From Chloroflexota bacterium (lineage in GTDB: Bacteria; Chloroflexota; Anaerolineae; Promineifilales; Promineifilaceae): a stretch of DNA of 46,086 nucleotides. The stretch spans positions 1,374 through 47,459 of the forward strand of contig JAGNBF010000058.1 in the NCBI GenBank assembly GCA_018004935.1. The letters run 5' to 3'. A program made the position numbers and the translations under genes. Numbering within the stretch: the first letter of the stretch is position 1; the number at the start of each line of letters is the position of its first letter. Of the stretch, positions 6,763 through 41,518 are shown in pieces. A model generated the notes under the pieces. The model saw only the letters and a program-made list of their open reading frames with translations, had not been told where the DNA came from and did not search any database.

Positions 6763-9700
6763 TTAGGGAACAGTGACTTCGTAGGCGTAAAAGAGTGGAT
6801 CGGCAAAGGTACCTGAGAAGGTTTGGAGATTGCCACCGGGGAAGCGAGCTACCACCTGGCTATGTTCAGCATACCGTTCGGGCAGGTAGATGAAGACGAG
6901 ATCGTGCGCGGCCGCGTTGAGAATGACCTCACCTTCGGCTACATCCACAAAATCTACCCCTGGGTAAACATCTTGCAGTAAAAAGGGAAACGTGGGGAAG
7001 CTGGTATACACATTCGGTGGCCCATACAAATAGACAAACTTGCCCTCATCTAGATCATTTAGATAAGTGGAAACCACATACGCCAGTTCGGTGTTGCGAT
7101 CCCCAAATCGGTTCTCATTGCGGTAGCCGCTAAAATAGTACAAGGTATCACTCAGGCTAAAAACGAAACCGATGAGGACGAGGATGATGAATGTTGCGGC
7201 CGCAGGGGTAAGGCGAGGAGAGGGCGATAAGGGGAGTGTGGGGTCGGTAGGCTGATCATCCACTACTGACAGCTCACGCGCAGATGTTGGTGACGTATTG
7301 TTCACGGCGGACTGTTCATTCTCATCCTTGTTGCTGTGCCATATTTTGTTAACCTGCTCTACTACCCAGGTGAGAGCCAGGGCGGTCAGCAGGACGACGG
7401 CAGGTGTGGCCACAAGGATGCGGTGACTGGCTGGTGGACTGTCCATCAGCGCGGCCGCGAACAGGAGCGTCACACCCAACCAGACCAGCAAAATCTGGTA
7501 TTTCACCTCACGCCATTTCAACAACGCCAGCCCAATTCCCAACAGATAAAAAGCCGCCCAAAAAGAACGAATGAAGGGTGTAGTAACACCATAAAGATTG
7601 CTGGTATCCAGCCCCGCGTTAAAGGCCACCGCGCCGCGCCACACCTGACCCCAAAGAATTGCCAGCGGGTTTTGCCCAGTATTAGCCGCCTGATTGGTCA
7701 GCCAGTTATTTTGTACAATGCCATACTGGTTGACCCGCTCCATAAAGACTGCCGGGGTAGCCCGATAATACAGATATTGGGGCAATAAAATAACGAGGGC
7801 CAACGCGGCCGCGATCAGTAAACCCTGTCCTCTTGTCCACAACTCAGCCCGGTTGCCCAATAACCAGACAACCACCAACCCCAGCACCATCAAAGGTAGT
7901 AGATGGGAACTGGTATAAAAATAAGCACACAATCCCAACGCGCCCCCCGCCACCAACCAGAGGGGGCGGCGGTTTTCTTGCCACGCCAGCGCCAACAGCC
8001 CTAACGCCAGCCACACAAGCAACGGATCCCAGATGTTAGTGACGCCCAGGCGACTGTAATGCAAATGAAGATGCCAGCCGGTGAGCAACGCGGCCGCGAC
8101 CAACCCCACCGTCGCCCCATACAAACGTCGCCCCAACAAAGCCACCGCCAACACTGTACCCGTCCCCACCAACACCGAGAGCAGGCGGAGCGATAACAAG
8201 GATGGCCCTAACAGGCTGAGGGGAATCGCCAGCAGAAAAGCGGGTAAGGTCGGGTTACTAATCCAACTCGTGGCAAAAGGAGAACGCAACGTTCCCTGCG
8301 TTACCGACAGGGCATCCAGACCAATATTGGCCTCTGTGCCATTCATGATGAAGGGATGGTTGGTCAAATCCACCAGACGAAAGAGCAGGGCGAAGAAGGT
8401 CAGGGCAATGATGAGGGCAAGCTCTAAACGATTGAGAGAGCGTACGACTGAGAAGCTGGAGGCAGGAGAATGATTATTGCCTGGGGCTGACTCATCACTT
8501 AGAGCATAAAGAGCAACGCCCGCGGCCGCGAACCAGAAAAGCAAAGCCAGCAGTGGTTTTTGTGTTCCCGTGCCACTTACCTGCCCTTGGGCCAACAACG
8601 ACAGAGCCAACGCAAAGCCATACAGCCAGCGGCGCGAGGGAATATCCGCCAGCCGAGGCCAACGCCATTCCGGTGAGGCTACCCGTTGTTGCCGCCACAA
8701 GACAACTCCTGCTGACACCAACGACAGCCCCCACCAGAATAATCCTGCCCCTGGTACACCGGGATCACGGCTCATCACCCCTTGCCCCACCAACGCCGCC
8801 ATCACGGCCAGCGCGACAAACCCCAGGGTGATAAGCGGGGATTGGGCCATTGGTGGATGGGTGGATGGGGTATTGACTATTGTTGGAGAGGGAGAGACCG
8901 GAGAGTGAAGATTTGCGAATGGTGAACTACCCTGTTCTCTATCAACTATCAACTGTTCACTATCAACTATCAACTGCTCACTGTCAACTATCAACTGTTC
9001 ATGAACCGGCTCCGGTTCGCACAATTCATCTAGAGTAAAGCGGCGCTCTTCGGGCAAGTGAATAGCGATGGGGCCATTTTTGATCTTTTGCGCCACAAAG
9101 AAGATGTACGCCCCTTGTTCGGGAAATGGCTCTTCGTACAGCGGCCGCAACCATTGTTCCGTTACCTGCAAACTCCGTTGGTAGGGAGCCACAATCCAGT
9201 GACCGGTTAGCGCATGAAGCACCGCTGATGGAACCCCCTGGGCGTGCCCCACTTCCAATGCCCTTAGCGCATCTTGGGAGAAATATTGTTGCCAGCGCAC
9301 AATGGCAAACCCTGCCTGGGCTAACCGTTCGGCCCACACTTGAGGTGCATCTGTGTGGGCGTGGCGCGAAATGCCGTTAAAGAAGTTGCGGTAAGAATCA
9401 GCCATACCGTCCAAACCAACACGTTCGAACGCGGCCGCGCCACCTAACATCTTAGTGAAATTATCGCTGGGCATGGTGATGACCAGCTTGCCGCCCGTTT
9501 TCAGCACCCGGCTGGCCTCATTCAGCACCGGCTGAATATCCGGGATATGCTCCAGCACCGAATTGCTGATCACACTGGCAAACGATTCATCGGGGAAAGG
9601 CATTTTGTCGCCCATGGCTTGCAAGAGTAGACGATAATTGCCCCCACGCCGCGACTTTTGCAGGGGGTTCCACCAGGGATCAATCCCGGCGGTAATCGGT

Positions 9701-9897
9701 TCATCAAAAATCACCCCGGTAAAATCGCCATCACCACACCCCAGGTCGAGGATAGGTTCAGGAATATCTGTGGCGCGATAAAAGCGGGCTTCAACGGCGC
9801 GAAGCAGAGCACGAAAAGCAGGCAAGGTTTTGAGTTGCCGCCAGAGAAGATCATCTGTATTGGGGGTTGTGTATGGCGTATTATTTCCGTTTACCAT
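6763..9897 (-). CDS. SAM methyltransferase fused to GT-C membrane glycosyltransferase
   Basis: A 1044-residue two-domain protein. Residues about 20-280 form a class I SAM-dependent methyltransferase (motif I ILDLGCGDGDF at 49-59, post-motif SVLEHIPD near 115). Residues about 300-350 are a low-complexity linker containing three copies of a seven-residue EQLIVDS repeat. From about 355 there are many hydrophobic segments of a PMT/ArnT-type GT-C glycosyltransferase, with the acidic loop NGTEANIG near 520 as the probable catalytic carboxylate. A second polar linker lies at about 855-900, before the last membrane segments. The likely role is transfer of a sugar from a polyprenyl-phosphate donor outside the membrane. 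It is followed closely by GT4 and flippase genes on the same strand. Seven Ala-Ala-Ala sites carry GCGGCCGC. Confidence 0.82.
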   Translation of the reverse strand: MVNGNNTPYTTPNTDDLLWRQLKTLPAFRALLRAVEARFYRATDIPEPILDLGCGDGDFTGVIFDEPITAGIDPWWNPLQKSRRGGNYRLLLQAMGDKMPFPDESFASVISNSVLEHIPDIQPVLNEASRVLKTGGKLVITMPSDNFTKMLGGAAAFERVGLDGMADSYRNFFNGISRHAHTDAPQVWAERLAQAGFAIVRWQQYFSQDALRALEVGHAQGVPSAVLHALTGHWIVAPYQRSLQVTEQWLRPLYEEPFPEQGAYIFFVAQKIKNGPIAIHLPEERRFTLDELCEPEPVHEQLIVDSEQLIVDSEQLIVDREQGSSPFANLHSPVSPSPTIVNTPSTHPPMAQSPLITLGFVALAVMAALVGQGVMSRDPGVPGAGLFWWGLSLVSAGVVLWRQQRVASPEWRWPRLADIPSRRWLYGFALALSLLAQGQVSGTGTQKPLLALLFWFAAAGVALYALSDESAPGNNHSPASSFSVVRSLNRLELALIIALTFFALLFRLVDLTNHPFIMNGTEANIGLDALSVTQGTLRSPFATSWISNPTLPAFLLAIPLSLLGPSLLSLRLLSVLVGTGTVLAVALLGRRLYGATVGLVAAALLTGWHLHLHYSRLGVTNIWDPLLVWLALGLLALAWQENRRPLWLVAGGALGLCAYFYTSSHLLPLMVLGLVVVWLLGNRAELWTRGQGLLIAAALALVILLPQYLYYRATPAVFMERVNQYGIVQNNWLTNQAANTGQNPLAILWGQVWRGAVAFNAGLDTSNLYGVTTPFIRSFWAAFYLLGIGLALLKWREVKYQILLVWLGVTLLFAAALMDSPPASHRILVATPAVVLLTALALTWVVEQVNKIWHSNKDENEQSAVNNTSPTSARELSVVDDQPTDPTLPLSPSPRLTPAAATFIILVLIGFVFSLSDTLYYFSGYRNENRFGDRNTELAYVVSTYLNDLDEGKFVYLYGPPNVYTSFPTFPFLLQDVYPGVDFVDVAEGEVILNAAAHDLVFIYLPERYAEHSQVVARFPGGNLQTFSGTFADPLFYAYEVTVP
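8935..9003 (-). repeat. In-frame 21-bp tandem repeat inside the fusion gene
   Basis: Three units of about 21 bp built from the submotif CAGTTGATAGTTGA encode the repeated peptide EQLIVDS. Related GTGAACAGTGAACAG sequence appears in the non-coding spacer at 12200-12240. It looks like an intergenic repeat that entered a tolerant linker without breaking the frame. Confidence 0.8.
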
Positions 9898-28090: not shown

Positions 28091-29368
28091 TTAATGTTGT
28101 TTCAGTTGTAGGTGCTGATAAATATCTATGATTTGGCTGGTTTTTTTCTGCCAGGTGTGGTGTTGTAGGGTTTTTGCGCGGCCGCGTTGCCCCATCATTT
28201 TAGCTACCGGCTCATGATCACACAGGTAAGCAATAGAGCGGGCCAGTTCCGCTACATTCCCAAAAGGGATTAACAAACCATCTTCTCCCTGGGTAATGAG
28301 ATCCGCAACACCCCAAGACTGAGCGCCAATAACGGGTTTTTCGTACAGCCATGCTTCCAGGTAGACAATACCAAAAGAATCTGTACGAGAAGGCATACAG
28401 AGTAACGTCGCGGCCGCGAGGGCATCTCGTTTCTCCTTATCATCTAATACCCCAACAACCTTGATTCGTTCCCGCTCCGTTACCGGAATACGAGCCATAT
28501 ACCGTTTATACTCCTCCGTGGGAGTTCCGGCCAAAACAAGTTCTACCTCTCGACCTTCTTGCCACAGACGGCGCACCGCTTCAATGGTGTGAAACGTCCC
28601 TTTATCATATGTCATCGAAGAAAGCGATAAAACTACTGGCCCTTGCAGTTGGTGTTGTTCGCGGAAGCGTGCCCCATTGCCCCCAATGATCGCTTCTGGT
28701 GTGACCCCCGGTCCGGAAACATAAATGCGTTCCGGGGGAATCCCTTTTTGGGTATAAAACTGCTTTTCAGTTTCCGTCTGCGCCATGATGGCATCACTTT
28801 GGCGCACCAGATCAACCTGGTGTTTCATGGTGTAAAAACGGCTTAAGGCGTCTTGTCCTGGTTGGGGACCAGCTCCCAGGTGAGTGAGTGGATAGGCGAC
28901 AAAGGGGATGTGGCGGCCGCGGGCAAAACGCCACCCGGCTTCAAATAACGGTTCGTAACAGATGGTCATACTGGCTACCAGATCGAATGATTCAGCCGTG
29001 GTTTCCAACCAGTGCCACAGCCCGGGAACCCAGGGGGTAAAGCGGGCCAGTCGCCGGGCCAGAGGAATGAAGGCATCCGGCAACCATGAGAGTCCCCAGA
29101 GAAGGCGGCGTATGGCGGCATAAGCGATGGGGCCAGTAGGCAGGTGATGCAGAGGGAAACGTAAAACCCGAACGCCCTGGATGATGGCTTCTGGTTCGGC
29201 CAGACGCTTGTGCCGGGGGTTCCACAGCCGTTCAAACGCCAGGGCATCTGTAGTGAGGATAGTAACAGAATGGTTCGCGGCCGCGAGAGCCGTCGAAATC
29301 TCTTCCAAATGAAACTCTGCTCCCCCCCGTGCTGGACGATATCGTTGGATGATGTGCAAAACCCGCAT
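28091..29368 (-). CDS. Glycosyltransferase family 4
   Basis: A 425-residue GT-B enzyme. The N-terminal half begins MRVLHIIQRYRPARGGAEFHL, the classic GT4 start with the GGAE/GGxE loop. The donor side has RTDSFGIVYLE (DX7E form of the usual EX7E) followed by AWLYEKPVIGA. It is probably the first enzyme of the locus downstream of the FG-GAP gene; nine bases separate it from the methyltransferase. Substrate unknown. Four GCGGCCGC copies occur, at 28178, 28410, 28913 and 29277. Confidence 0.85.
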   Translation of the reverse strand: MRVLHIIQRYRPARGGAEFHLEEISTALAAANHSVTILTTDALAFERLWNPRHKRLAEPEAIIQGVRVLRFPLHHLPTGPIAYAAIRRLLWGLSWLPDAFIPLARRLARFTPWVPGLWHWLETTAESFDLVASMTICYEPLFEAGWRFARGRHIPFVAYPLTHLGAGPQPGQDALSRFYTMKHQVDLVRQSDAIMAQTETEKQFYTQKGIPPERIYVSGPGVTPEAIIGGNGARFREQHQLQGPVVLSLSSMTYDKGTFHTIEAVRRLWQEGREVELVLAGTPTEEYKRYMARIPVTERERIKVVGVLDDKEKRDALAAATLLCMPSRTDSFGIVYLEAWLYEKPVIGAQSWGVADLITQGEDGLLIPFGNVAELARSIAYLCDHEPVAKMMGQRGRAKTLQHHTWQKKTSQIIDIYQHLQLKQH

Positions 29369-32065: not shown

Positions 32066-33715
32066 TTAAGAATAAGCACGATTATAAAACCATTGTCCTT
32101 TGTGGTGTAAACTGATTAACTCTTGGGGTGTGAGCGAATACGCGGCCGCAGATAATTCCGGTTTTTGAAAGTAACGACTTTGGGGCACATAACGCACAAA
32201 AAACTCTCCACCCACCTGCAAGGAGTGGAAATGCACCCCGGCACTGGTTAATTGGTCATGGAGTGTGAAAGGGGTCTCCAGTTGCAGGCGGCGGGTAAAT
32301 GTGGCCGCGACGGGACGTGTGCCCAGCATCAGGTTGCGCCGAATGGCCCCTTTGAGCCAGTGCGAAAGGGTAGGTGACCAACCCACGGTAAGCAGGGCCA
32401 GACGGAAGAGTAAAAACCGGGCTGGCGTAAAGAGCTTGGCTGAAGGTACTTTGTGTAGATGTCCACTGATGCGTAATTCGGTGTCGTTGAGTTCAATTTG
32501 ATAAGCCGGATCTATCCATTGGGAAGTAACCACCGAACCATCCGTAAGTTGGCCTAACCAACCTCCATCGCTGGTGAGACGCTTTTCCTGCTGGCTGTCA
32601 AAGAGAAGGAGTACGCCTCCTTTGGCCGCATTGACAAGTAAGTAGCGGTCATCGGCACTTTTCTGGGCGTAAATTTTGGCTCCAGAGAAATAACGGCGGA
32701 ATGGCTCGCTCTGGTAAGGGAGGGGAGGGAGTGATTCGGGGCGGGGAGTGTAATCCAGATAAGCCTGGAGAAATTCGGGGATGCGGTAAAGAAAGTAGCG
32801 ATCAGCCTGGATTTCGGGAGGAACCAGACCGCCATGGGCTAAAGAACGGAGCAATCGTTGGGCTATCGCGGCCGCGGTGGGCATTTCCCGTGCCATTATT
32901 TCCAGTCCGTGGGGATAAAAATGCACTGTCTGGCGGCTCCCCAACATACCCCCATAATATCCATCGGGATAGACAACATAGCTGACAAACGCTACCGCTT
33001 CTGTCAACACCCGTCGTAACTCTGCCGTGGGATTCTCCTGATAAATCTTGCCCAAAAACGAAATTGTCGCCGAAAGATAACCCGGATCTACTCCATCATA
33101 CTCCAGCGACCAGCCCTCTGGCTGATGATAATGGCGCAAGAACCCTTGCCAGATACGTTCATAACCAGCCAGAATTGTTTTGTCCCCCAGTAAACGGTAT
33201 GCCTTCCAGAGAGCCAGGCAAGCCATGGCATGATGATTCGCCAGTTTATCTTCTTCTTGTTCCCCTTGGGCAATGGCTTGAGCCGCCCGCCGCACTGCCG
33301 CCAGTAGTATCGTTTTAACCGGTTCATCCATTTCCTGGTGTAAAAGCTGAAAGGCTTCACAAACGGCAAAGGTTGTAAAAGCGGTTGGCCCAACCCAGCC
33401 CCGTTCGTAGGGGTAAAACTCATCAAAAGTGCCATCCGGGTGTTGGATGTTGGCCCAATACATCATCCCGGCAATGGCCCAATCGCGCACCCGTGTTTGA
33501 CCCAGGTAGGGGTTGTCGGGAAAGGCATGGCAATACACCAGGGCCAATGAGTGCACCCCAAATTGAGGTAGGGCATCGGGAAAATCGTCAACCTTGTCTA
33601 GCCAGTAACGGCGATGGAAAGAACCATAAGTAGGTGACAAGGGGTTCCGATCCTGCAAGGATAACAGGCGGGGAATCTGGCTCAAGGCTTTTTGGGCATA
33701 AGTGGCACGGAGCAT
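32066..33715 (-). CDS. Predicted alpha/alpha-toroid glycan-active protein
   Basis: A 549-residue protein without a signal peptide. The first 300 residues consist of helical repeats with aromatic turns (GSFHRRYWLDKVDDFPDALPQF, YWANIQHPDGTFDEFYPYERGWVG, LANHHAMACLALW, GWSLEYDGVDPGYLSATI), the look of (alpha/alpha)6 toroid enzymes such as heparinase/alginate lyases or glucuronyl epimerases. The C-terminal 200 residues are beta-rich (ISGHLHKVPSAKLF...). A role in cutting or modifying uronic polymers is a guess from shape and location in the glycan locus; catalytic residues cannot be assigned. An inside-the-cell location would be unusual for a lyase. Confidence 0.6.
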   Translation of the reverse strand: MLRATYAQKALSQIPRLLSLQDRNPLSPTYGSFHRRYWLDKVDDFPDALPQFGVHSLALVYCHAFPDNPYLGQTRVRDWAIAGMMYWANIQHPDGTFDEFYPYERGWVGPTAFTTFAVCEAFQLLHQEMDEPVKTILLAAVRRAAQAIAQGEQEEDKLANHHAMACLALWKAYRLLGDKTILAGYERIWQGFLRHYHQPEGWSLEYDGVDPGYLSATISFLGKIYQENPTAELRRVLTEAVAFVSYVVYPDGYYGGMLGSRQTVHFYPHGLEIMAREMPTAAAIAQRLLRSLAHGGLVPPEIQADRYFLYRIPEFLQAYLDYTPRPESLPPLPYQSEPFRRYFSGAKIYAQKSADDRYLLVNAAKGGVLLLFDSQQEKRLTSDGGWLGQLTDGSVVTSQWIDPAYQIELNDTELRISGHLHKVPSAKLFTPARFLLFRLALLTVGWSPTLSHWLKGAIRRNLMLGTRPVAATFTRRLQLETPFTLHDQLTSAGVHFHSLQVGGEFFVRYVPQSRYFQKPELSAAAYSLTPQELISLHHKGQWFYNRAYS

Positions 33716-34630: not shown

Positions 34631-34712
34631 AGTAATCGTTCGTATTTAACTTAGCGGTTTGCTGTGGCCGGTCTCCTGACCGCGCCACCCATCTTATTTC
34701 CGAACGATTACT
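34631..34712. mobile_element. Short repeat with AGTAATCGTTCG ends, abutting a stop codon
   Basis: AGTAATCGTTCG (34631-34642) and CGAACGATTACT (34701-34712) are perfect inverted repeats. The interior holds the GTGGCCGGTC / GACCGCGCCAC hairpin. The right end overlaps the TAG stop of the GT4 gene ending at 34711, so the element edge lies at that gene's last codon. No target duplication is visible. Confidence 0.65.
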
Positions 34713-35793
34713 AATGAAACTCCGGCAACCCGTTTATCAGACAATGCCATAGTTCTTTAACTTCAGCTTCCAGATAAAAGGGCAAACGCTGTCTTTGGCG
34801 TGCCAATAATTTGTGGCGCATTGTCTGATCTTGCAAAAGGATACAGACCAGTTCGGCCAGGGCTTCGAAGTTTTTCTCATGGAACAAGACACCCGCATCC
34901 CCTAATGTGCCGGGTATGCCACTGCTGGCATATGCCATTACCGGTAAATCAAATAACATGCTTTCAATGAAAGGTTTACCAAATCCCTCATGTTCGCTCA
35001 TAGACACATATAGATCTGCCAGTCGGTAATAGGTGATCATGTCCTGGAAGGTGACATGGTTAGCGAAGATAGTCGCCTGGTCGAGGTGTAAGAATTCGTT
35101 CAAATCTTGGAGCCAGCGGGCGTAAGGGGGTGTCCAGGGAGATCCTATCAGCACCAACCGTACGGTTGAGTCTATGCGACGCACATAGTAGAGCAGTTTC
35201 AGGAGATCCTCTTGTTTTTTATTGGGCGATTGCCGTCCTACAAAGAGGAGTAACGGGCCACTGTCTTTATAGGCCTGGAGTAGGGCCGGGTTAGAAGGTG
35301 TTTCCCGGTAGAGTGTATCATTAATACCGATGGGCAAGACATCCGTTTGGGCGAACCCTACAGCTTGCAGTTCCCCGGTATTAAAGGGGGACACGCCCAG
35401 GGCTAACCGGGTGCGTGGCACCAGTAGGGGTAGTTGCTCTCGCCCCCAGATGAGCTGGCGGGTCAGGGCGGGGTCTAACTCGGCAAAGAATTCGGGGGGG
35501 GTGATGTTGTGGTAAATCAGGATGACTTGCTGGTGGGCTGGCAGGTCTAACAAGGTATTTACCACTTCGGAGCCGATACCGTGATGATAGATGACCAGTG
35601 ATTCTTGCGGGGTAGGGTGATAACTGCTGAGGGGTTTGATCTCCTTTTCCAGGTCTGGGTGCATGTGTAGTGTGTAAATATCGGAGATGAAACCCATCTG
35701 GCGTAACCAGCCCTGTATTTGCCGGGCGTGATCGGTCATGGCATCACCGGGTGCGGCCGCTTCTGTGAGTTGGTGTAGAATAGGTTTACTCAT
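34711..35793 (-). CDS. Glycosyltransferase family 4
   Basis: A 360-residue GT-B enzyme. The ATG at 35793 overlaps the TGA stop of the preceding GT4 by ATGA, the sign of coupled translation. The N-terminal half is less typical (ILHQLTEAAAPGDAMTDHARQ), with acceptor-side YHHGIGSE; the C-terminal half has LLFVGRQSPNKKQEDLL and the donor motif EGFGKPFIE. It is likely to extend the same polysaccharide as the gene before it. Its stop codon coincides with the right end of the repeat at 34631-34712. Confidence 0.85.
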   Translation of the reverse strand: MSKPILHQLTEAAAPGDAMTDHARQIQGWLRQMGFISDIYTLHMHPDLEKEIKPLSSYHPTPQESLVIYHHGIGSEVVNTLLDLPAHQQVILIYHNITPPEFFAELDPALTRQLIWGREQLPLLVPRTRLALGVSPFNTGELQAVGFAQTDVLPIGINDTLYRETPSNPALLQAYKDSGPLLLFVGRQSPNKKQEDLLKLLYYVRRIDSTVRLVLIGSPWTPPYARWLQDLNEFLHLDQATIFANHVTFQDMITYYRLADLYVSMSEHEGFGKPFIESMLFDLPVMAYASSGIPGTLGDAGVLFHEKNFEALAELVCILLQDQTMRHKLLARQRQRLPFYLEAEVKELWHCLINGLPEFH

Positions 35794-36944
35794 GTTTGTT
35801 GCCACGCCTGCCACGTTTGCTCAAACTGGTCTACCAGAATGGGCCAGGTGTAATGTTTGAGCACATATTCGCGGCCGCGTAACCCCATAGCCTGGGCTTC
35901 CTCCCGATGTTGGTTGAACCAATCTAACGCGGCCGCAAATTCTTCATAATCCCGAAACCACAGCCCCCCTTCCGAACGGCGGGCATGCCCCCGAGTCACC
36001 GGACTGTAACCATGTACCAGCACGGGGCGTCCGGCAATCCAGGATTCTAATAAGGTAATACCAAAACTCTCAAACACCGATGGCTGGCACATAGCCAGGG
36101 CAGAGGCGCATAACTTGTTTTTTTCCTCTTCGCTAACAAAACCCCGAAAATCAATCCCCGGATGGACTGGGGGTTTGATAGGGCCACTGCCAGTAACAAC
36201 CAGTTTGACGCGGCCGCCATTGTCCCAGTAGCGTTGAGCATATTCATACACCAACAAGACATTTTTCCCCTCTTCCAGGCGGGTGATCAGTAAGATAAAC
36301 GGCGGTTCACCCACTTGTGGGGTGGGTAAAACTTCGGGGATGGGTACACCAACTCCTAAGACGGTGTGGTGGCGGGGCCGAATATGGAGTTTTTGTAAGG
36401 CTAACTCTTCTTCCTCCAGAGTGTTGAAGAGGATGCCCTGCACCGTTTCCAGAATGAGGTGCGTGGGTTCCATGTAGGCGTATGGTTCATTGTGCAGGCA
36501 GGCAATAAAGTGGGTTTTTTCCGGGGCACACCAGGCGGCCAGGTGCATCATGGGATTGGCATAAGGCATGACGATGATGGCCGACATCGCGGCCGCGTTC
36601 TGCAAAATATGCCGATACAGCCCCGGACTATGAGAGCCAATTTCCAACCACTGATATTGTTCCTGACGCGAAAGCCCTCCGCGTGTCCCCAGATAGCTTT
36701 CTAACTCCGCTTTTTTATCAATGTTGACAAATTCTACCGGGAACCGTAGTACCCGAATGCCGTTATCCCAGGATTCTCCGGCCGGGTAGCTGTTTTCCCA
36801 GGTGTAATGGCTGTGGGCACAGGTTGTCCAGGCTTCCACCTGCCAACCGCGTCGGGCCGCTTCCAGGGCAAACCAACGGGCGTGGGTTTCCGCTCCCCCG
36901 CCAATATCAAAACCAAATCGTGGTACAACAATTGCTAATTTCAT
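35790..36944 (-). CDS. Glycosyltransferase family 4
   Basis: A 384-residue GT-B enzyme starting MKLAIVVPRFGFDIGGGAETHAR, the GT4 acceptor loop. The C-terminal half has TRLEEGKNVLLVYEYA, then the donor motif ESFGITLLE and SWIAGRPVLVHG. It overlaps the next GT4 by four bases and lies 15 bases after the small coiled-coil gene at 36960. Five GCGGCCGC copies occur. Confidence 0.87.
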   Translation of the reverse strand: MKLAIVVPRFGFDIGGGAETHARWFALEAARRGWQVEAWTTCAHSHYTWENSYPAGESWDNGIRVLRFPVEFVNIDKKAELESYLGTRGGLSRQEQYQWLEIGSHSPGLYRHILQNAAAMSAIIVMPYANPMMHLAAWCAPEKTHFIACLHNEPYAYMEPTHLILETVQGILFNTLEEEELALQKLHIRPRHHTVLGVGVPIPEVLPTPQVGEPPFILLITRLEEGKNVLLVYEYAQRYWDNGGRVKLVVTGSGPIKPPVHPGIDFRGFVSEEEKNKLCASALAMCQPSVFESFGITLLESWIAGRPVLVHGYSPVTRGHARRSEGGLWFRDYEEFAAALDWFNQHREEAQAMGLRGREYVLKHYTWPILVDQFEQTWQAWQQT

Positions 36945-36959: not shown

Positions 36960-37457
36960 CTAGCGCTGGCTCTCACCCTTCCGCCGCACTTCCTCTTCCA
37001 GGGCCAAAATTTGTCGTTGTTGCTCTTGTAATTGGGCGGTCAGCCGGTTGATGACACTGATCAGATGACGGTTTACGTTTACCTGCTGGGTAATATTGCG
37101 GTTGACATAAAACAATACAAGATTGTGGGCACCCCCACGAATGAGTCGCCATATTCTGCCCAAAACTGGAATACGGGTACTGGGTGAGTCGGTGAGCAGG
37201 GGCTGTGTTTCAACCTGATTGTAGATGCGATTGACCTGGCGTAAGTGGTAATGCAGAAACTCATCATACGGTATATCGTCTGGCTCGCCAGGATAATCAG
37301 TGGTACCAAAAGCCGGGAAACGGCGGTTATCGTAGCCAAGTTCCTGTCGCCGCCGGGTAATGCGGCCGCGAATTTCATTCATTAACGCTTCCCCATCTAT
37401 TTCCGGGTCACGGATTTCGATGAGATCATTGGGGGGTAGGGGAGGGGGAGTACTCAA
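36960..37457 (-). CDS. Small coiled-coil partner protein of glycosyltransferases (copy A)
   Basis: About 165 residues. I take the TTG start at 37457 because GGAGG lies five bases upstream; the ATG at 37487 has no such site. The first part is Pro-rich and acidic (PPPLPPNDLIEIRDPEIDGEAL), then R-rich helices, then an amphipathic segment IPVLGRIWRLIRGG and a Gln-rich coiled coil ending QQRQILALEEEVRRK. The same order, (V/I)PV(V/L)G then IR, QQ, N, LI and a coiled coil, is in the 41132-41518 protein. It is just upstream of a GT4, as is the other copy. Function unknown; a membrane-edge or GT scaffold role is possible. Confidence 0.65.
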   Translation of the reverse strand: MSTPPPLPPNDLIEIRDPEIDGEALMNEIRGRITRRRQELGYDNRRFPAFGTTDYPGEPDDIPYDEFLHYHLRQVNRIYNQVETQPLLTDSPSTRIPVLGRIWRLIRGGAHNLVLFYVNRNITQQVNVNRHLISVINRLTAQLQEQQRQILALEEEVRRKGESQR

Positions 37458-37523
37458 GAATACCTCCGTGGGTAGAATAGTAAACAATAGACATTATTAG
37501 TATTAACGTTATGTCACGCTAAG

Positions 37524-37617
37524 ATAAGTGTTCAGTCTCTCTGGAGAAGTTGAACTTTTAGCCCTGCTGAACGAGACATCACCAAAGAAAAATTCAACTT
37601 CTTGACTGAACGGTTAC
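37524..37617. mobile_element. Short mobile-repeat remnant (GTAAGCGTTCAGTT family)
   Basis: TAAGTGTTCAGT (37525-37536) and ACTGAACGGTTA (37605-37616) are inverted repeats, and GAAGTTGAACTTTT / AAAAATTCAACTTC form an inner pair. No target duplication seen. It lies in the 148-base gap between the GT-C gene and the coiled-coil gene. Confidence 0.65.
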
Positions 37618-37635
37618 TGAGGTTTTATAGCGGTG

Positions 37636-39864
37636 TTATTTTTGTTCCGGTATCAATATCATTTCACCGGCCCAGTGATTGGTCAGGATTGTCGTGGGGC
37701 GACGGTCATACGTACCTTCAAGTAATTGGCTTTCAATTTGATAAGATGTACCTGGCGGTAAAGGTGTATTGGGTAAAGGCCAGGCGTGTCCGCCGGGAAT
37801 CTCTATCCAGTATATTGCTCGACCCTGTCCTTGCCAAAAAATGAGTTGTTGGCGGAATTGGCCCGCATCCAGAAGATCGGGTTCGCGCCAGATCAAGAGG
37901 TCTTGACCAAAAATAAAGTGTAAGGGTGTGCCCAAAAAATCGGCCTGACCCACCGCGGCCGCGTCATTAAAAATGAGAATCGCTCCGGGGGATAATGTTT
38001 GGCTGAAATTATCGAGCTTCATCACCAACCCTGCATGATCCACCTGGCTGATAAAACCCCGTGCTAACCAGGCAAACCCCGCCAACCAGAGCAAAGTCAG
38101 CCCTAGTGTGCCCAGTGTCCAGAGTCGTTGCCGGGTGTTACTACGCCACCAGGAAATGAGAGGGATTTGTTGAGCGCTAAAGTGTGCGAGCAAGTTTGCG
38201 GCCGCGATGATAAAAAAGGGCATGACGGCGGGCATATAACGGCGCATGGTGTAAATCTGGTGTTGGCTGGCCTGGATGCGCCATAGGTAGAGCAGGCTGA
38301 AAAACAGCCCCACGGTGAACCAGGGCAAAGTGCGCCGATCCAGCCGCCACACCAGCCAGGCCATGCCCACAATTCCCAGCCACACCCCCAATGGTGACAA
38401 ATACCAGCCCAGCCGCCAGAAATTCAAGGCGTCGAGAATGGGCATAGCCGCTTCACTGTACCAATCGTTGTACTGCTCGGCCCCGCTAAGAACCGGGCGC
38501 AAAAACCAGCCATAGATTCCCCAGAGCAGGATGAAGACCGCGGCCGCGCCCTTTAGCCGAGTCACCCAACGCGGTGCCACAGTCAACCGGCTCCGTGCGC
38601 CATACCCAATGGCCAGCAGGAGCATCATTCCCCCCATTCCTAGCAACACCGGCATGGGATTACGCTGGGCGTAGCGGATGATATAGCTAAAGGTATCTAC
38701 AAAATAAGGCCGACTCTGCCACCAGGCGTGAATGAGGGTATGCAGACTGAGGAGCAATACGGGCACAAAAAACCAAAGGGCCGAAGCGAGAGGCGCGGGT
38801 GAATGTGGGCCTGGAGCATGGCGCGGCCGCAGGAGAAGCCAGAGAAACGCGGCCGCGGGTAAGGCCAGGATAAAAAACATATCAATCCGTACCAATTGGC
38901 TACTGCCAAACATCAAACCAGCCAGAAGGCCCCATTGCGGCCGCGACTCTCCCGCCAGCATCCCTTCCCACCAAATACCAAAGCCCCACAGCCCCAGCCA
39001 GAGCAAATACTGCGTCAAACTTTCTGTCACCGAATAACGGGCAAACCATATCTGAATCGCATTGAGGCTGACACCCACCAGGGCCAAAAAGGCGGCCCAA
39101 CGGCTGGTTGTCTGGCGCACGGTAAGATAAATCGCCACCGTCCCCAGCAACGCCCACAACCCCGTCAGGTGTAAGGCATTCAGCGTGCCCTGAACCGGTT
39201 TACCTCCCAGAGCATACACCAACGCCTGCCATACCGGATGCAACGGGTAAAACTGGGGGGTAACGTCGCCACTCTCGCCGCTGGCATAAAAACCGGGAAA
39301 AAGGTAAGAAGGCGCGTAATTGGCTTCTGGTAGCGGCCGCAAAAAGGCCGGGCGTAGCGTGGGAGCCATTTCGGCCAGCAGGTCATCATGAATGAGAATC
39401 TGACCGGTGTGGGCAATGTTGGCCGCCAGGCTGACATATACCCCGGCATCTGCTCCCCCTTGCAGACTTTGATGCGGCCGCAAAAAGAGCCAGCTTGCCG
39501 CCACCAGCCACAACAAAAACCACCCTTGCCACCAGTTGCCCGACCAGCGGGGCAGGGACCCCAAAGCCGCCCAGCCTCCCCGGCGAACCGTAAGCCCGAT
39601 CAGCCCCACGACACCCACCCCCCAGGAAAAGGCCAGAATGGATAACCGAAATAATCCCACCTCGGCCAGACAGACGGCCAGCCAGCCCAAAACTGCTACC
39701 CCTAGTCCTATACTCGCCGCGATGAGTGCCAGGCCCCCAGTCTGGGAACGGGGTGAGTCTGATGCGGTGCGGGCAAATGTTTGCGCGTAGTGAAAAAATA
39801 ACCACCCTAAAATCAAGGTGGCGCACAAAATGAGGCTGAGGGCAAAACTGGTGGCAAGATTCAT
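37636..39864 (-). CDS. GT-C family membrane glycosyltransferase
   Basis: A 742-residue protein with about a dozen hydrophobic segments throughout, starting MNLATSFALSLILCATLILG. The first large loop has the acidic motif GGADAGVYVSLAANIA, a plausible catalytic Asp, and a nearby FYPLHPVWQAL segment. The last 150 residues are soluble (SQTLSPGAILIFNDAAAVG). The fold resembles PMT/ArnT/GT83 enzymes that take sugars from polyprenyl-phosphate donors made by the GT2 at 33726. Eight GCGGCCGC sites occur. Confidence 0.8.
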   Translation of the reverse strand: MNLATSFALSLILCATLILGWLFFHYAQTFARTASDSPRSQTGGLALIAASIGLGVAVLGWLAVCLAEVGLFRLSILAFSWGVGVVGLIGLTVRRGGWAALGSLPRWSGNWWQGWFLLWLVAASWLFLRPHQSLQGGADAGVYVSLAANIAHTGQILIHDDLLAEMAPTLRPAFLRPLPEANYAPSYLFPGFYASGESGDVTPQFYPLHPVWQALVYALGGKPVQGTLNALHLTGLWALLGTVAIYLTVRQTTSRWAAFLALVGVSLNAIQIWFARYSVTESLTQYLLWLGLWGFGIWWEGMLAGESRPQWGLLAGLMFGSSQLVRIDMFFILALPAAAFLWLLLRPRHAPGPHSPAPLASALWFFVPVLLLSLHTLIHAWWQSRPYFVDTFSYIIRYAQRNPMPVLLGMGGMMLLLAIGYGARSRLTVAPRWVTRLKGAAAVFILLWGIYGWFLRPVLSGAEQYNDWYSEAAMPILDALNFWRLGWYLSPLGVWLGIVGMAWLVWRLDRRTLPWFTVGLFFSLLYLWRIQASQHQIYTMRRYMPAVMPFFIIAAANLLAHFSAQQIPLISWWRSNTRQRLWTLGTLGLTLLWLAGFAWLARGFISQVDHAGLVMKLDNFSQTLSPGAILIFNDAAAVGQADFLGTPLHFIFGQDLLIWREPDLLDAGQFRQQLIFWQGQGRAIYWIEIPGGHAWPLPNTPLPPGTSYQIESQLLEGTYDRRPTTILTNHWAGEMILIPEQK

Positions 39865-39898
39865 AAGCTGGATGGCGTTAGCCCCCTGGTGGGTATGC

Positions 39899-41122
39899 TC
39901 AGCGGGATGCGGCCGCGACCTGGGGCAAACGTTGCCGGGTCATAGCGATGACCTCAGCCAGAAAGGTGGTAATTTCTTGGGCGATTTTGTCGCGGCCGCA
40001 ATGGGTAAGAATATACTGTGCGGCCGCGTGCCCCATCTTTTGGCGTAAGGTTGGCTCCTCAACCAGAGTCTGCATAGCCTGGTAAAGCGCTTCTTCATCC
40101 ATCACAGGAACTTTCCAGGCAATCTCAGATGGTAACTCGGCATACCATCCCTGATCAAACACGATCACCGGCTTACCCTGAGCCAATGCCCGGAGCGCCG
40201 TACCCGAGGTTTCCCCAGTGGTGGGGTGACGCAGGTTTACGATGAAGTCTGCGGCCGCGATCCAGTTCACAAATTGCGCCAGATCTGGCACAAAGCCAGT
40301 GTAATGAACCACCTCACCCAGCCCTGTTTCCGTCAGTAGCGTGGGTAAATCTAACTCAGCCGGAAAGGCTTCACCCACCAGAAGTAACCGCGTGTGGGGA
40401 AATACCTGGTGTAAACGGCGAAAGACACGGAGCACTACATCTACCCGTTTGGCCCAGGTAATCTGACCCAATACAGCCACGACCACTGCCTCATCGGGCC
40501 AACCTGCCATCTGGCGCAGGGCCTGTGTCATGGAGGCTGGCTCCATCTGATGGTGGATCACCCGCACCGGGCGATCCCGGCGCTGTTTTTGCAGGCGACG
40601 GCGCACGTAATGGCTATGTACCAGCACCCCCAAACTCCGATCCACGAGTCGCTGATTGAGTGGCGTCAAATCGTAAAAGGCGTCTCCTTTTTCTACTGCC
40701 CGGTGCAGTGAGGGATAGCTACCAAAGGGAAAACGATCCTCATCAAAACTGTAGGCTATCTCTTGCAAATAGTGGTATACCCGCCCTTGTCGCCGGGTCA
40801 GGGCTTCAATGAACTGGTGTAGAACAAAATCATGCAAAGTAATTACCCCCGGATACCGTAACGCCATGGGGTAGAGAGCGGTGTGAGTTGCGCTATTACC
40901 CATTTGGTAAAAAGGCAGGTCGTAAGACCAACGTTGGGAGGGGTAATCCTCATGGGGCAAGATGGGGAATTGCGTTTTCAGCGTAGGGGCGACCATTTCT
41001 GGGGTTTCGTGGAATACAGTCAGGTTGGCGTAGCGAGAAAGGGCCGGTAATAGTTCTGCGCTGTAGTCGGCGATACCGGTATGGGACGGGGGAAGAGGGC
41101 TAAAATAAGCCAGATTAAGCAT
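39899..41122 (-). CDS. Glycosyltransferase family 4
   Basis: A 407-residue GT-B enzyme beginning MLNLAYFSPLPPSHTGIADYS. The C-terminal half carries VAVLGQITWAKRVDVVL and the donor motif GETSGTALRALAQGKPVIVFD; the second Glu of EX7E is replaced by Ala, as in some GT4 subgroups that use the Glu-Thr-Ser-Gly form. It is nine bases after the coiled-coil gene at 41132. Four GCGGCCGC copies occur, two just 20 bases apart (39992 and 40020). Confidence 0.85.
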   Translation of the reverse strand: MLNLAYFSPLPPSHTGIADYSAELLPALSRYANLTVFHETPEMVAPTLKTQFPILPHEDYPSQRWSYDLPFYQMGNSATHTALYPMALRYPGVITLHDFVLHQFIEALTRRQGRVYHYLQEIAYSFDEDRFPFGSYPSLHRAVEKGDAFYDLTPLNQRLVDRSLGVLVHSHYVRRRLQKQRRDRPVRVIHHQMEPASMTQALRQMAGWPDEAVVVAVLGQITWAKRVDVVLRVFRRLHQVFPHTRLLLVGEAFPAELDLPTLLTETGLGEVVHYTGFVPDLAQFVNWIAAADFIVNLRHPTTGETSGTALRALAQGKPVIVFDQGWYAELPSEIAWKVPVMDEEALYQAMQTLVEEPTLRQKMGHAAAQYILTHCGRDKIAQEITTFLAEVIAMTRQRLPQVAAASR

Positions 41123-41131
41123 GGGGTAGGG

Positions 41132-41518
41132 TTACTTTTCCAACTGTTGCAAGCGGTTTTCCAGATCAACCAGACGCTTTTGCAGTTGATTTAATTGAGC
41201 CATTACCTCAGCCATGTCATGAACAAGTTCACTTTCCTCTTGTTCCAGGGCGGCATAACGTGTGTGCTGGTAAGCAATAGCAGGCCAAAACTGAGGGAGT
41301 GACTGGGTGATCAGATAATTAAATTCATTTTGTTGCTTCACCAACGGTTTCAGAAGCCAATGGGTGGAGATTTTGCTAATCTGTTGCCGTATGTAGGTTA
41401 TCAGCGGGCCGACAACCGGTACTTGGGAAACTAATTCCCTTTGTTGTAATTGCCAATGTGCTTCTAACTCGGTTTGATGCCGGATAAAAGGCGCCTCTTG
41501 TTCCTCAAAAATGGGCAT
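41132..41518 (-). CDS. Small coiled-coil partner protein of glycosyltransferases (copy B)
   Basis: A 128-residue soluble protein. After an acidic start it has VPVVGPLITYIRQQISK, then HWLLKPLVKQQNEFNYLI, then a long coiled coil (residues about 80-128) with a regular Leu/Glu/Gln heptad ending RLVDLENRLQQLEK. The order of motifs parallels the 36960-37457 protein. GAGGAG lies ten bases before the ATG. It has no recognised domain; the pairing with GT4 genes is the main clue. Confidence 0.7.
   Translation of the reverse strand: MPIFEEQEAPFIRHQTELEAHWQLQQRELVSQVPVVGPLITYIRQQISKISTHWLLKPLVKQQNEFNYLITQSLPQFWPAIAYQHTRYAALEQEESELVHDMAEVMAQLNQLQKRLVDLENRLQQLEK

Follow-up and report, generated by a model that had tools for sequence, protein, structure and literature searches.

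In the Escherichia coli O9a and Klebsiella pneumoniae O3 pathways, the coiled coil of WbdD has been described as a scaffold, associated with the membrane, that both recruits the polymerase and serves as a length ruler (PMC3482155, PMC11231755). Here, we describe a family of small coiled-coil modules that resembles WbdD in its location in polysaccharide clusters and its fusion to methyltransferases, and that may also resemble it in the membrane-side scaffolding by which WbdD recruits the glycosyltransferase (GT) WbdA (PMC3482155, PMC11231755). The differences are equally apparent: each pathway has a single WbdD, a terminator enzyme whose coil is a long ruler, whereas the module is short, stands alone or is fused to many kinds of enzyme, and is present once per enzyme. 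Moreover, WbdD holds a kinase and/or a terminator methyltransferase in the same protein, while the two standalone modules at the center of this study, CC1 (165 aa) and CC2 (128 aa), have neither, and Pfam searches found no enzyme domain in either of them. The WbdD coiled coil may thus be regarded as the closest working analogue of the module, with a sequence relationship not detected: WbdD was not returned by PDB sequence searches with CC1, the core profiles or a module-fused methyltransferase, although much of the coil may be missing from the WbdD constructs on deposit, and the best PDB match of the module-fused methyltransferase was 3dli rather than WbdD.

Similar considerations apply to the coiled-coil terminators of K. 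pneumoniae O4, O7 and O12 (WbbB and relatives), membrane-associated scaffolds in which a coil is joined to GTs and a methyltransferase in one polypeptide or complex (PMC11231755). As described, these proteins are set apart by the defined-length ruler placed between terminator and polymerase, whereas the module is a small standalone partner encoded ahead of a GT. Another point of comparison is PglH of Campylobacter jejuni, characterized as a membrane-associated GT4-type GT that acts on a lipid-linked acceptor (PMC5792488). The means by which the separate enzymes of bacterial polysaccharide pathways meet have been worked out in few cases other than some O-antigen systems. The membrane-facing helices of PglH are part of the GT fold, as opposed to a separate, portable coiled-coil module.

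CC1 and CC2 are encoded in a 46,086-nucleotide stretch of Chloroflexota DNA, the whole of which we refer to as the window; all window features for which start and end positions are given lie on the minus strand. CC1 (36960-37457) consists of an N-terminal D(P)EID/IR region, a PVLG-R-FYVN-QxxxN core and a C-terminal coiled coil. Its preferred start is a TTG at 37457, which has GGAGG 5 nt upstream, while a longer open reading frame extending to 37487 is without a comparable ribosome-binding site. CC2 (41132-41518) starts at an ATG at 41518 preceded by GAGGAG and is made up of a PVVG-R-W-QQxxFN core followed by the coiled coil. The original prediction located both genes correctly, as well as the GT4 genes that begin 15 nt after CC1 (35790-36944; Pfam Glycos_transf_1, 1.2e-14) and 9 nt after CC2 (39899-41122; Pfam Glyco_trans_1_4, 2e-14), both of which Pfam assigns to Glycos_transf_1. 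Inspection of the sequence upstream of the GT4 gene at 39899-41122 gave no clear ribosome-binding site of its own. The orthologue of the GT4 at 35790-36944 in locus L100 is likewise preceded by a CC1.

The two module-GT4 pairs flank a gene for a 742-aa membrane protein (37636-39864) that we call GT-C-like for its size and hydrophobic sequence only; searches of Pfam and NCBIfam returned zero matches for it, and its relatives adjoin modules in most of the relative clusters that we mapped. The order module-GT4-GT4 is conserved, and in the window its second GT4 (34711-35814; Pfam Glycos_transf_1, 1.6e-23) is without a module of its own, as are the transferases at 28091 and 27065, so that pairing is not universal within the cluster. 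The cluster also encodes a 549-aa protein (32066-33715) with a weak pectate-lyase match alone (NCBIfam E 0.0068, far below the cut-off). Elsewhere in the window, a 1044-aa protein (6763-9897) has an N-terminal methyltransferase-like part and a long hydrophobic GT-C-like part linked by the repeat EQLIVDSEQLIVDSEQLIVD.

On the evidence of sequence comparison, CC1 and CC2 are related standalone copies of one module family. Direct BLAST between them is marginal (22% over 41 aa, E 0.042), and the original prediction had therefore caught a similarity barely visible to pairwise tools. Profiles built from strict homologue sets (26 sequences for CC1 and 14 for CC2, with no member in common) align with an hhalign E of 1.9e-7 and a probability of 93.7, and each recovers members of the opposite set among 2116 open reading frames at E values of about 1e-2 to 1e-7; larger alignments of the two types give a profile-profile E of 8.5e-11. 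The shared core, P(V)(I/L)G - R - (W/F)Y(V/I) - QxxxN followed by a coiled coil, aligns in CC1, CC2 and 73 other sequences, and the feature order proposed from the two proteins alone recurs as conserved columns across these 75 sequences (P 93%, G 92%, R 86%, Y 81%, Q 94%, N 89%). Since none of these columns falls beyond the point at which the coiled coil begins, the likeness between CC1 and CC2 is not a product of coiled-coil convergence. Among 59 relatives, homologues of CC1 were found in 24 and of CC2 in 25, often with both in one cluster.

As the original prediction had supposed, the family is undescribed: none of Pfam, NCBIfam, PHROGs and PADLOC has an entry that covers the module core at curated cut-offs, and the family libraries yielded, below those cut-offs, chance coiled-coil matches and, for the CC2 coil, a weak match to one PHROG whose function is unknown (E 0.0014). 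PDB sequence searches with CC1 and the core profiles gave nothing meaningful, no solved fold in the PDB matched the CC1 model beyond chance, and literature searches of open-licence papers did not find a description of the module. The module family is real, undescribed and widespread, and it is strongly tied in genomes to polysaccharide transferases.

The last of these points is borne out by the genes beside the standalone modules. Across the relatives, a glycosyltransferase or methyltransferase gene comes next on the same strand for 50 of 58 standalone copies, compared with 46 of 246 controls; for loci collected by motif, a same-strand transferase gene follows in 50 of 60 cases, against 38 of 271 controls. 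The corresponding Fisher p values (~4e-22 and ~3e-25) are too small because clustered genes are not independent, but the difference is large. For these counts, duplicates were removed, controls were non-transferase, non-module genes of the same loci, module-fused transferases were counted as transferases, and enzymes were labelled with profiles built from catalytic domains only. Gene maps of ~45 relative loci show GT4, FkbM, GT-C-like or GT2 genes immediately after standalone modules, with up to five modules within one cluster (L089). Exceptions include standalone copies followed by a GSDH-type gene (L069, L076) or an oxidoreductase gene (L194). The commonest junction between module and enzyme is an overlap of exactly 4 nt (35 of 101); ribosome-binding sites showed no overall difference in strength between modules and partner enzymes, so that the case for general translational coupling comes from the gene overlaps only.

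The module occurs not only directly 5' of glycosyl- or methyltransferase genes but also fused to their products. It is found at the C-terminus of GT2 (~30 open reading frames) and of GT4, at the N-terminus of GT4, FkbM and class I methyltransferases, and, in two long proteins, between a GT4 and a methyltransferase. The original proposal of a putative partner or scaffold family for glycosyltransferases is thus supported, in that neither outcome named as speaking against it was seen: profiles do detect the similarity, and the tie to transferase genes recurs elsewhere. It should, however, be widened beyond GT4 to a mobile module, given the GT2, FkbM and class I methyltransferases that adjoin the module or are fused to it, the GT-C-like membrane proteins beside it, and its occurrence outside the window's phylum. 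Both window GT4s have fused counterparts: a homologue of 39899-41122 in L085 (43%, E 2e-87) has an N-terminus that matches CC2 at 9e-11, and a homologue of 35790-36944 in L114 (34%, E 5e-68) bears a module at its C-terminus. Module and FkbM are encoded separately, with a 4-nt overlap, in L098 and as a single polypeptide in L085. The fact that module-enzyme pairs are separate in some genomes and fused in others constitutes classical fusion evidence for a functional link. In locus L130, a GT4-module fusion gene overlaps by 4 nt a following gene for a Wzt-type ABC transporter ATPase with a Wzt_C domain, an arrangement that links the module to transporter-dependent polysaccharide export.

Modules and enzymes have also been inherited together. 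Over 44 pairs drawn from 25 genomes, the more alike two modules are, the more alike their enzymes tend to be (rho 0.221, compared with 0.026 +/- 0.049 when partners are shuffled within genomes; maximum 0.200 in 1000 shuffles), and for GT4 pairs the best module match is also the best enzyme match in 313 of 427 comparisons, where ~206 would be expected. Because conserved cluster order contributes to this signal, it speaks to co-inheritance of the pairs rather than to binding.

The distribution of the family extends well beyond the window. CC2-type core matches are present in 58 of 300 genomes of the window's phylum, and 80 loci came out of a motif scan of named genomes, most of them from Chloroflexota and others from Paenibacillus, Syntrophomonas palmitatica and an Actinomycetota MAG; the scan of the genome collection used the closer core alignment A4, A3 being too variable. 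In the phylum of the Actinomycetota MAG, 18 of 197 genomes match; in several clusters there, the gene of a standalone module and a GT2 gene share 1-4 nt, and two module-methyltransferase fusions occur, so that the module-transferase pattern is seen again in a lineage distant from that of the window. Matches were found in 4 of 199 genomes from the phylum to which the Paenibacillus genome belongs, and a plasmid search with a Paenibacillus member gave zero matches. Chloroflexota-like module genes were also seen in contigs titled Singulisphaera, Gracilibacteria and Woesearchaeota (L154, L184 and L197), the last with a module stretch identical to that of L195 (Thermoflexales). These three are probably mis-binned contigs and were left out of the evidence for spread.

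AlphaFold models of CC1 (helices at 32-49, 76-91 and 111-174 in a 175-aa numbering; mean pLDDT 83) and CC2 (helices at 8-22 and 38-127; mean pLDDT 86) each contain one long helix of 64-90 residues whose first residue comes directly after the conserved Gly. In a family-averaged test, the first part of this helix has a net charge of +2.3 to +3.6 and is moderately amphipathic in two of the three subtypes, the amphipathicity of the CC2 type not being significant; a simple helical-moment test on individual sequences gave a weak signal. The later part is heptad-like, with a periodicity near 100-104 degrees, as expected of a coiled coil. In L135, a standalone form of 249 aa has the RWYINP helix a second time, as a degenerate copy; other Chloroflexota standalone forms, such as those of L159-L163, possibly do as well, and several Chloroflexota genomes have two core matches within one open reading frame.

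With moderate confidence, we favor the view that the module is a portable adaptor that combines coiled-coil oligomerization with the gathering of polysaccharide transferases at the membrane. In such a scheme, an N-cap (PV.G) would lead into a single long helix, predicted to be basic and amphipathic in its first turns and a coiled coil thereafter. The coil would oligomerize, while the conserved R/Y/QxxxN stretch, together with the basic helix, might dock both the cognate transferase and the membrane face. Many polysaccharide transferases would then carry their own adaptor, fused or as a separate subunit, as may be the case in the window, where each of the two module genes immediately precedes a GT4 gene, and the adaptors could bring the enzymes that make one polymer together in a complex on the membrane side. 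Several observations can be held against the adaptor, namely the only moderate amphipathicity, the exceptions in L069, L076 and L194, the transferases without a module, and conserved gene order as an alternative source of co-inheritance.

The presence of one module per enzyme, the overlapping genes, the co-inherited pairs and the fusions would equally be expected if each module were a dedicated obligate subunit that stabilizes or activates its own enzyme only, with a homo-oligomeric coil setting the quaternary state of that enzyme and no complex across enzymes. We consider this rather unlikely, since the same module accompanies unrelated folds (GT2, GT4, FkbM and class I methyltransferases) at either end and is present in several copies per cluster; taken together, its independence of position, its use with unrelated folds, and its presence once per enzyme yet several times per cluster favor an adaptor over an enzyme-specific subunit. 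A role mainly as a membrane anchor, in which the basic amphipathic helix would lie on the membrane and the coil would merely dimerize, would suit the soluble folds of the partner GT4s and methyltransferases as well as the charge and, in two of the three subtypes, the amphipathicity of the first helix part. Nevertheless, CC2-type amphipathicity falls short of significance, and modules also directly precede GT-C-like genes, whose products are already membrane proteins (L061, L063, L066 and L073, where some other gene may nonetheless be the actual partner), making this role improbable.

Given the example of WbdD, a coil adjoining polysaccharide enzymes also raises the question of whether the module could be a chain-length ruler, as do the methyltransferase fusions in which 56-233 residues separate motif and enzyme. 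Such a function appears highly improbable, in that the coil of GT fusions is short and narrow in its spread (interquartile range 42-61 residues) and CC1 and CC2 are without a terminator enzyme. Finally, the marginal BLAST result and a coil rich in Q, L and E might suggest that CC1 and CC2 are unrelated coiled-coil proteins that precede GT4 genes by coincidence. We attach next to no probability to this reading, which is contradicted by the profile-profile alignments, with disjoint and fuller sets alike, by the fact that they span the P, G, R, Y, Q and N columns, which precede the coil, and by the strong neighborhood statistics.

Within the adaptor reading, it is tempting to speculate about a docking code. 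In polyketide synthases, small helical docking domains, sometimes coiled coils, tie the separate enzymes of a pathway together; they serve another pathway and, to our knowledge, are unrelated to the module. By analogy with the way in which docking domains order polyketide synthases, hetero-pairing coils of one cluster might order successive glycosyl- and methyltransferases on the membrane, an idea that we put forward as unlikely on present evidence.

A small portable module that marks many transferases, whether standing alone or fused to them, would provide a sequence handle for finding polysaccharide enzyme complexes, would help predict which enzymes work together, and would give a name to many hypothetical proteins and unannotated enzyme termini.
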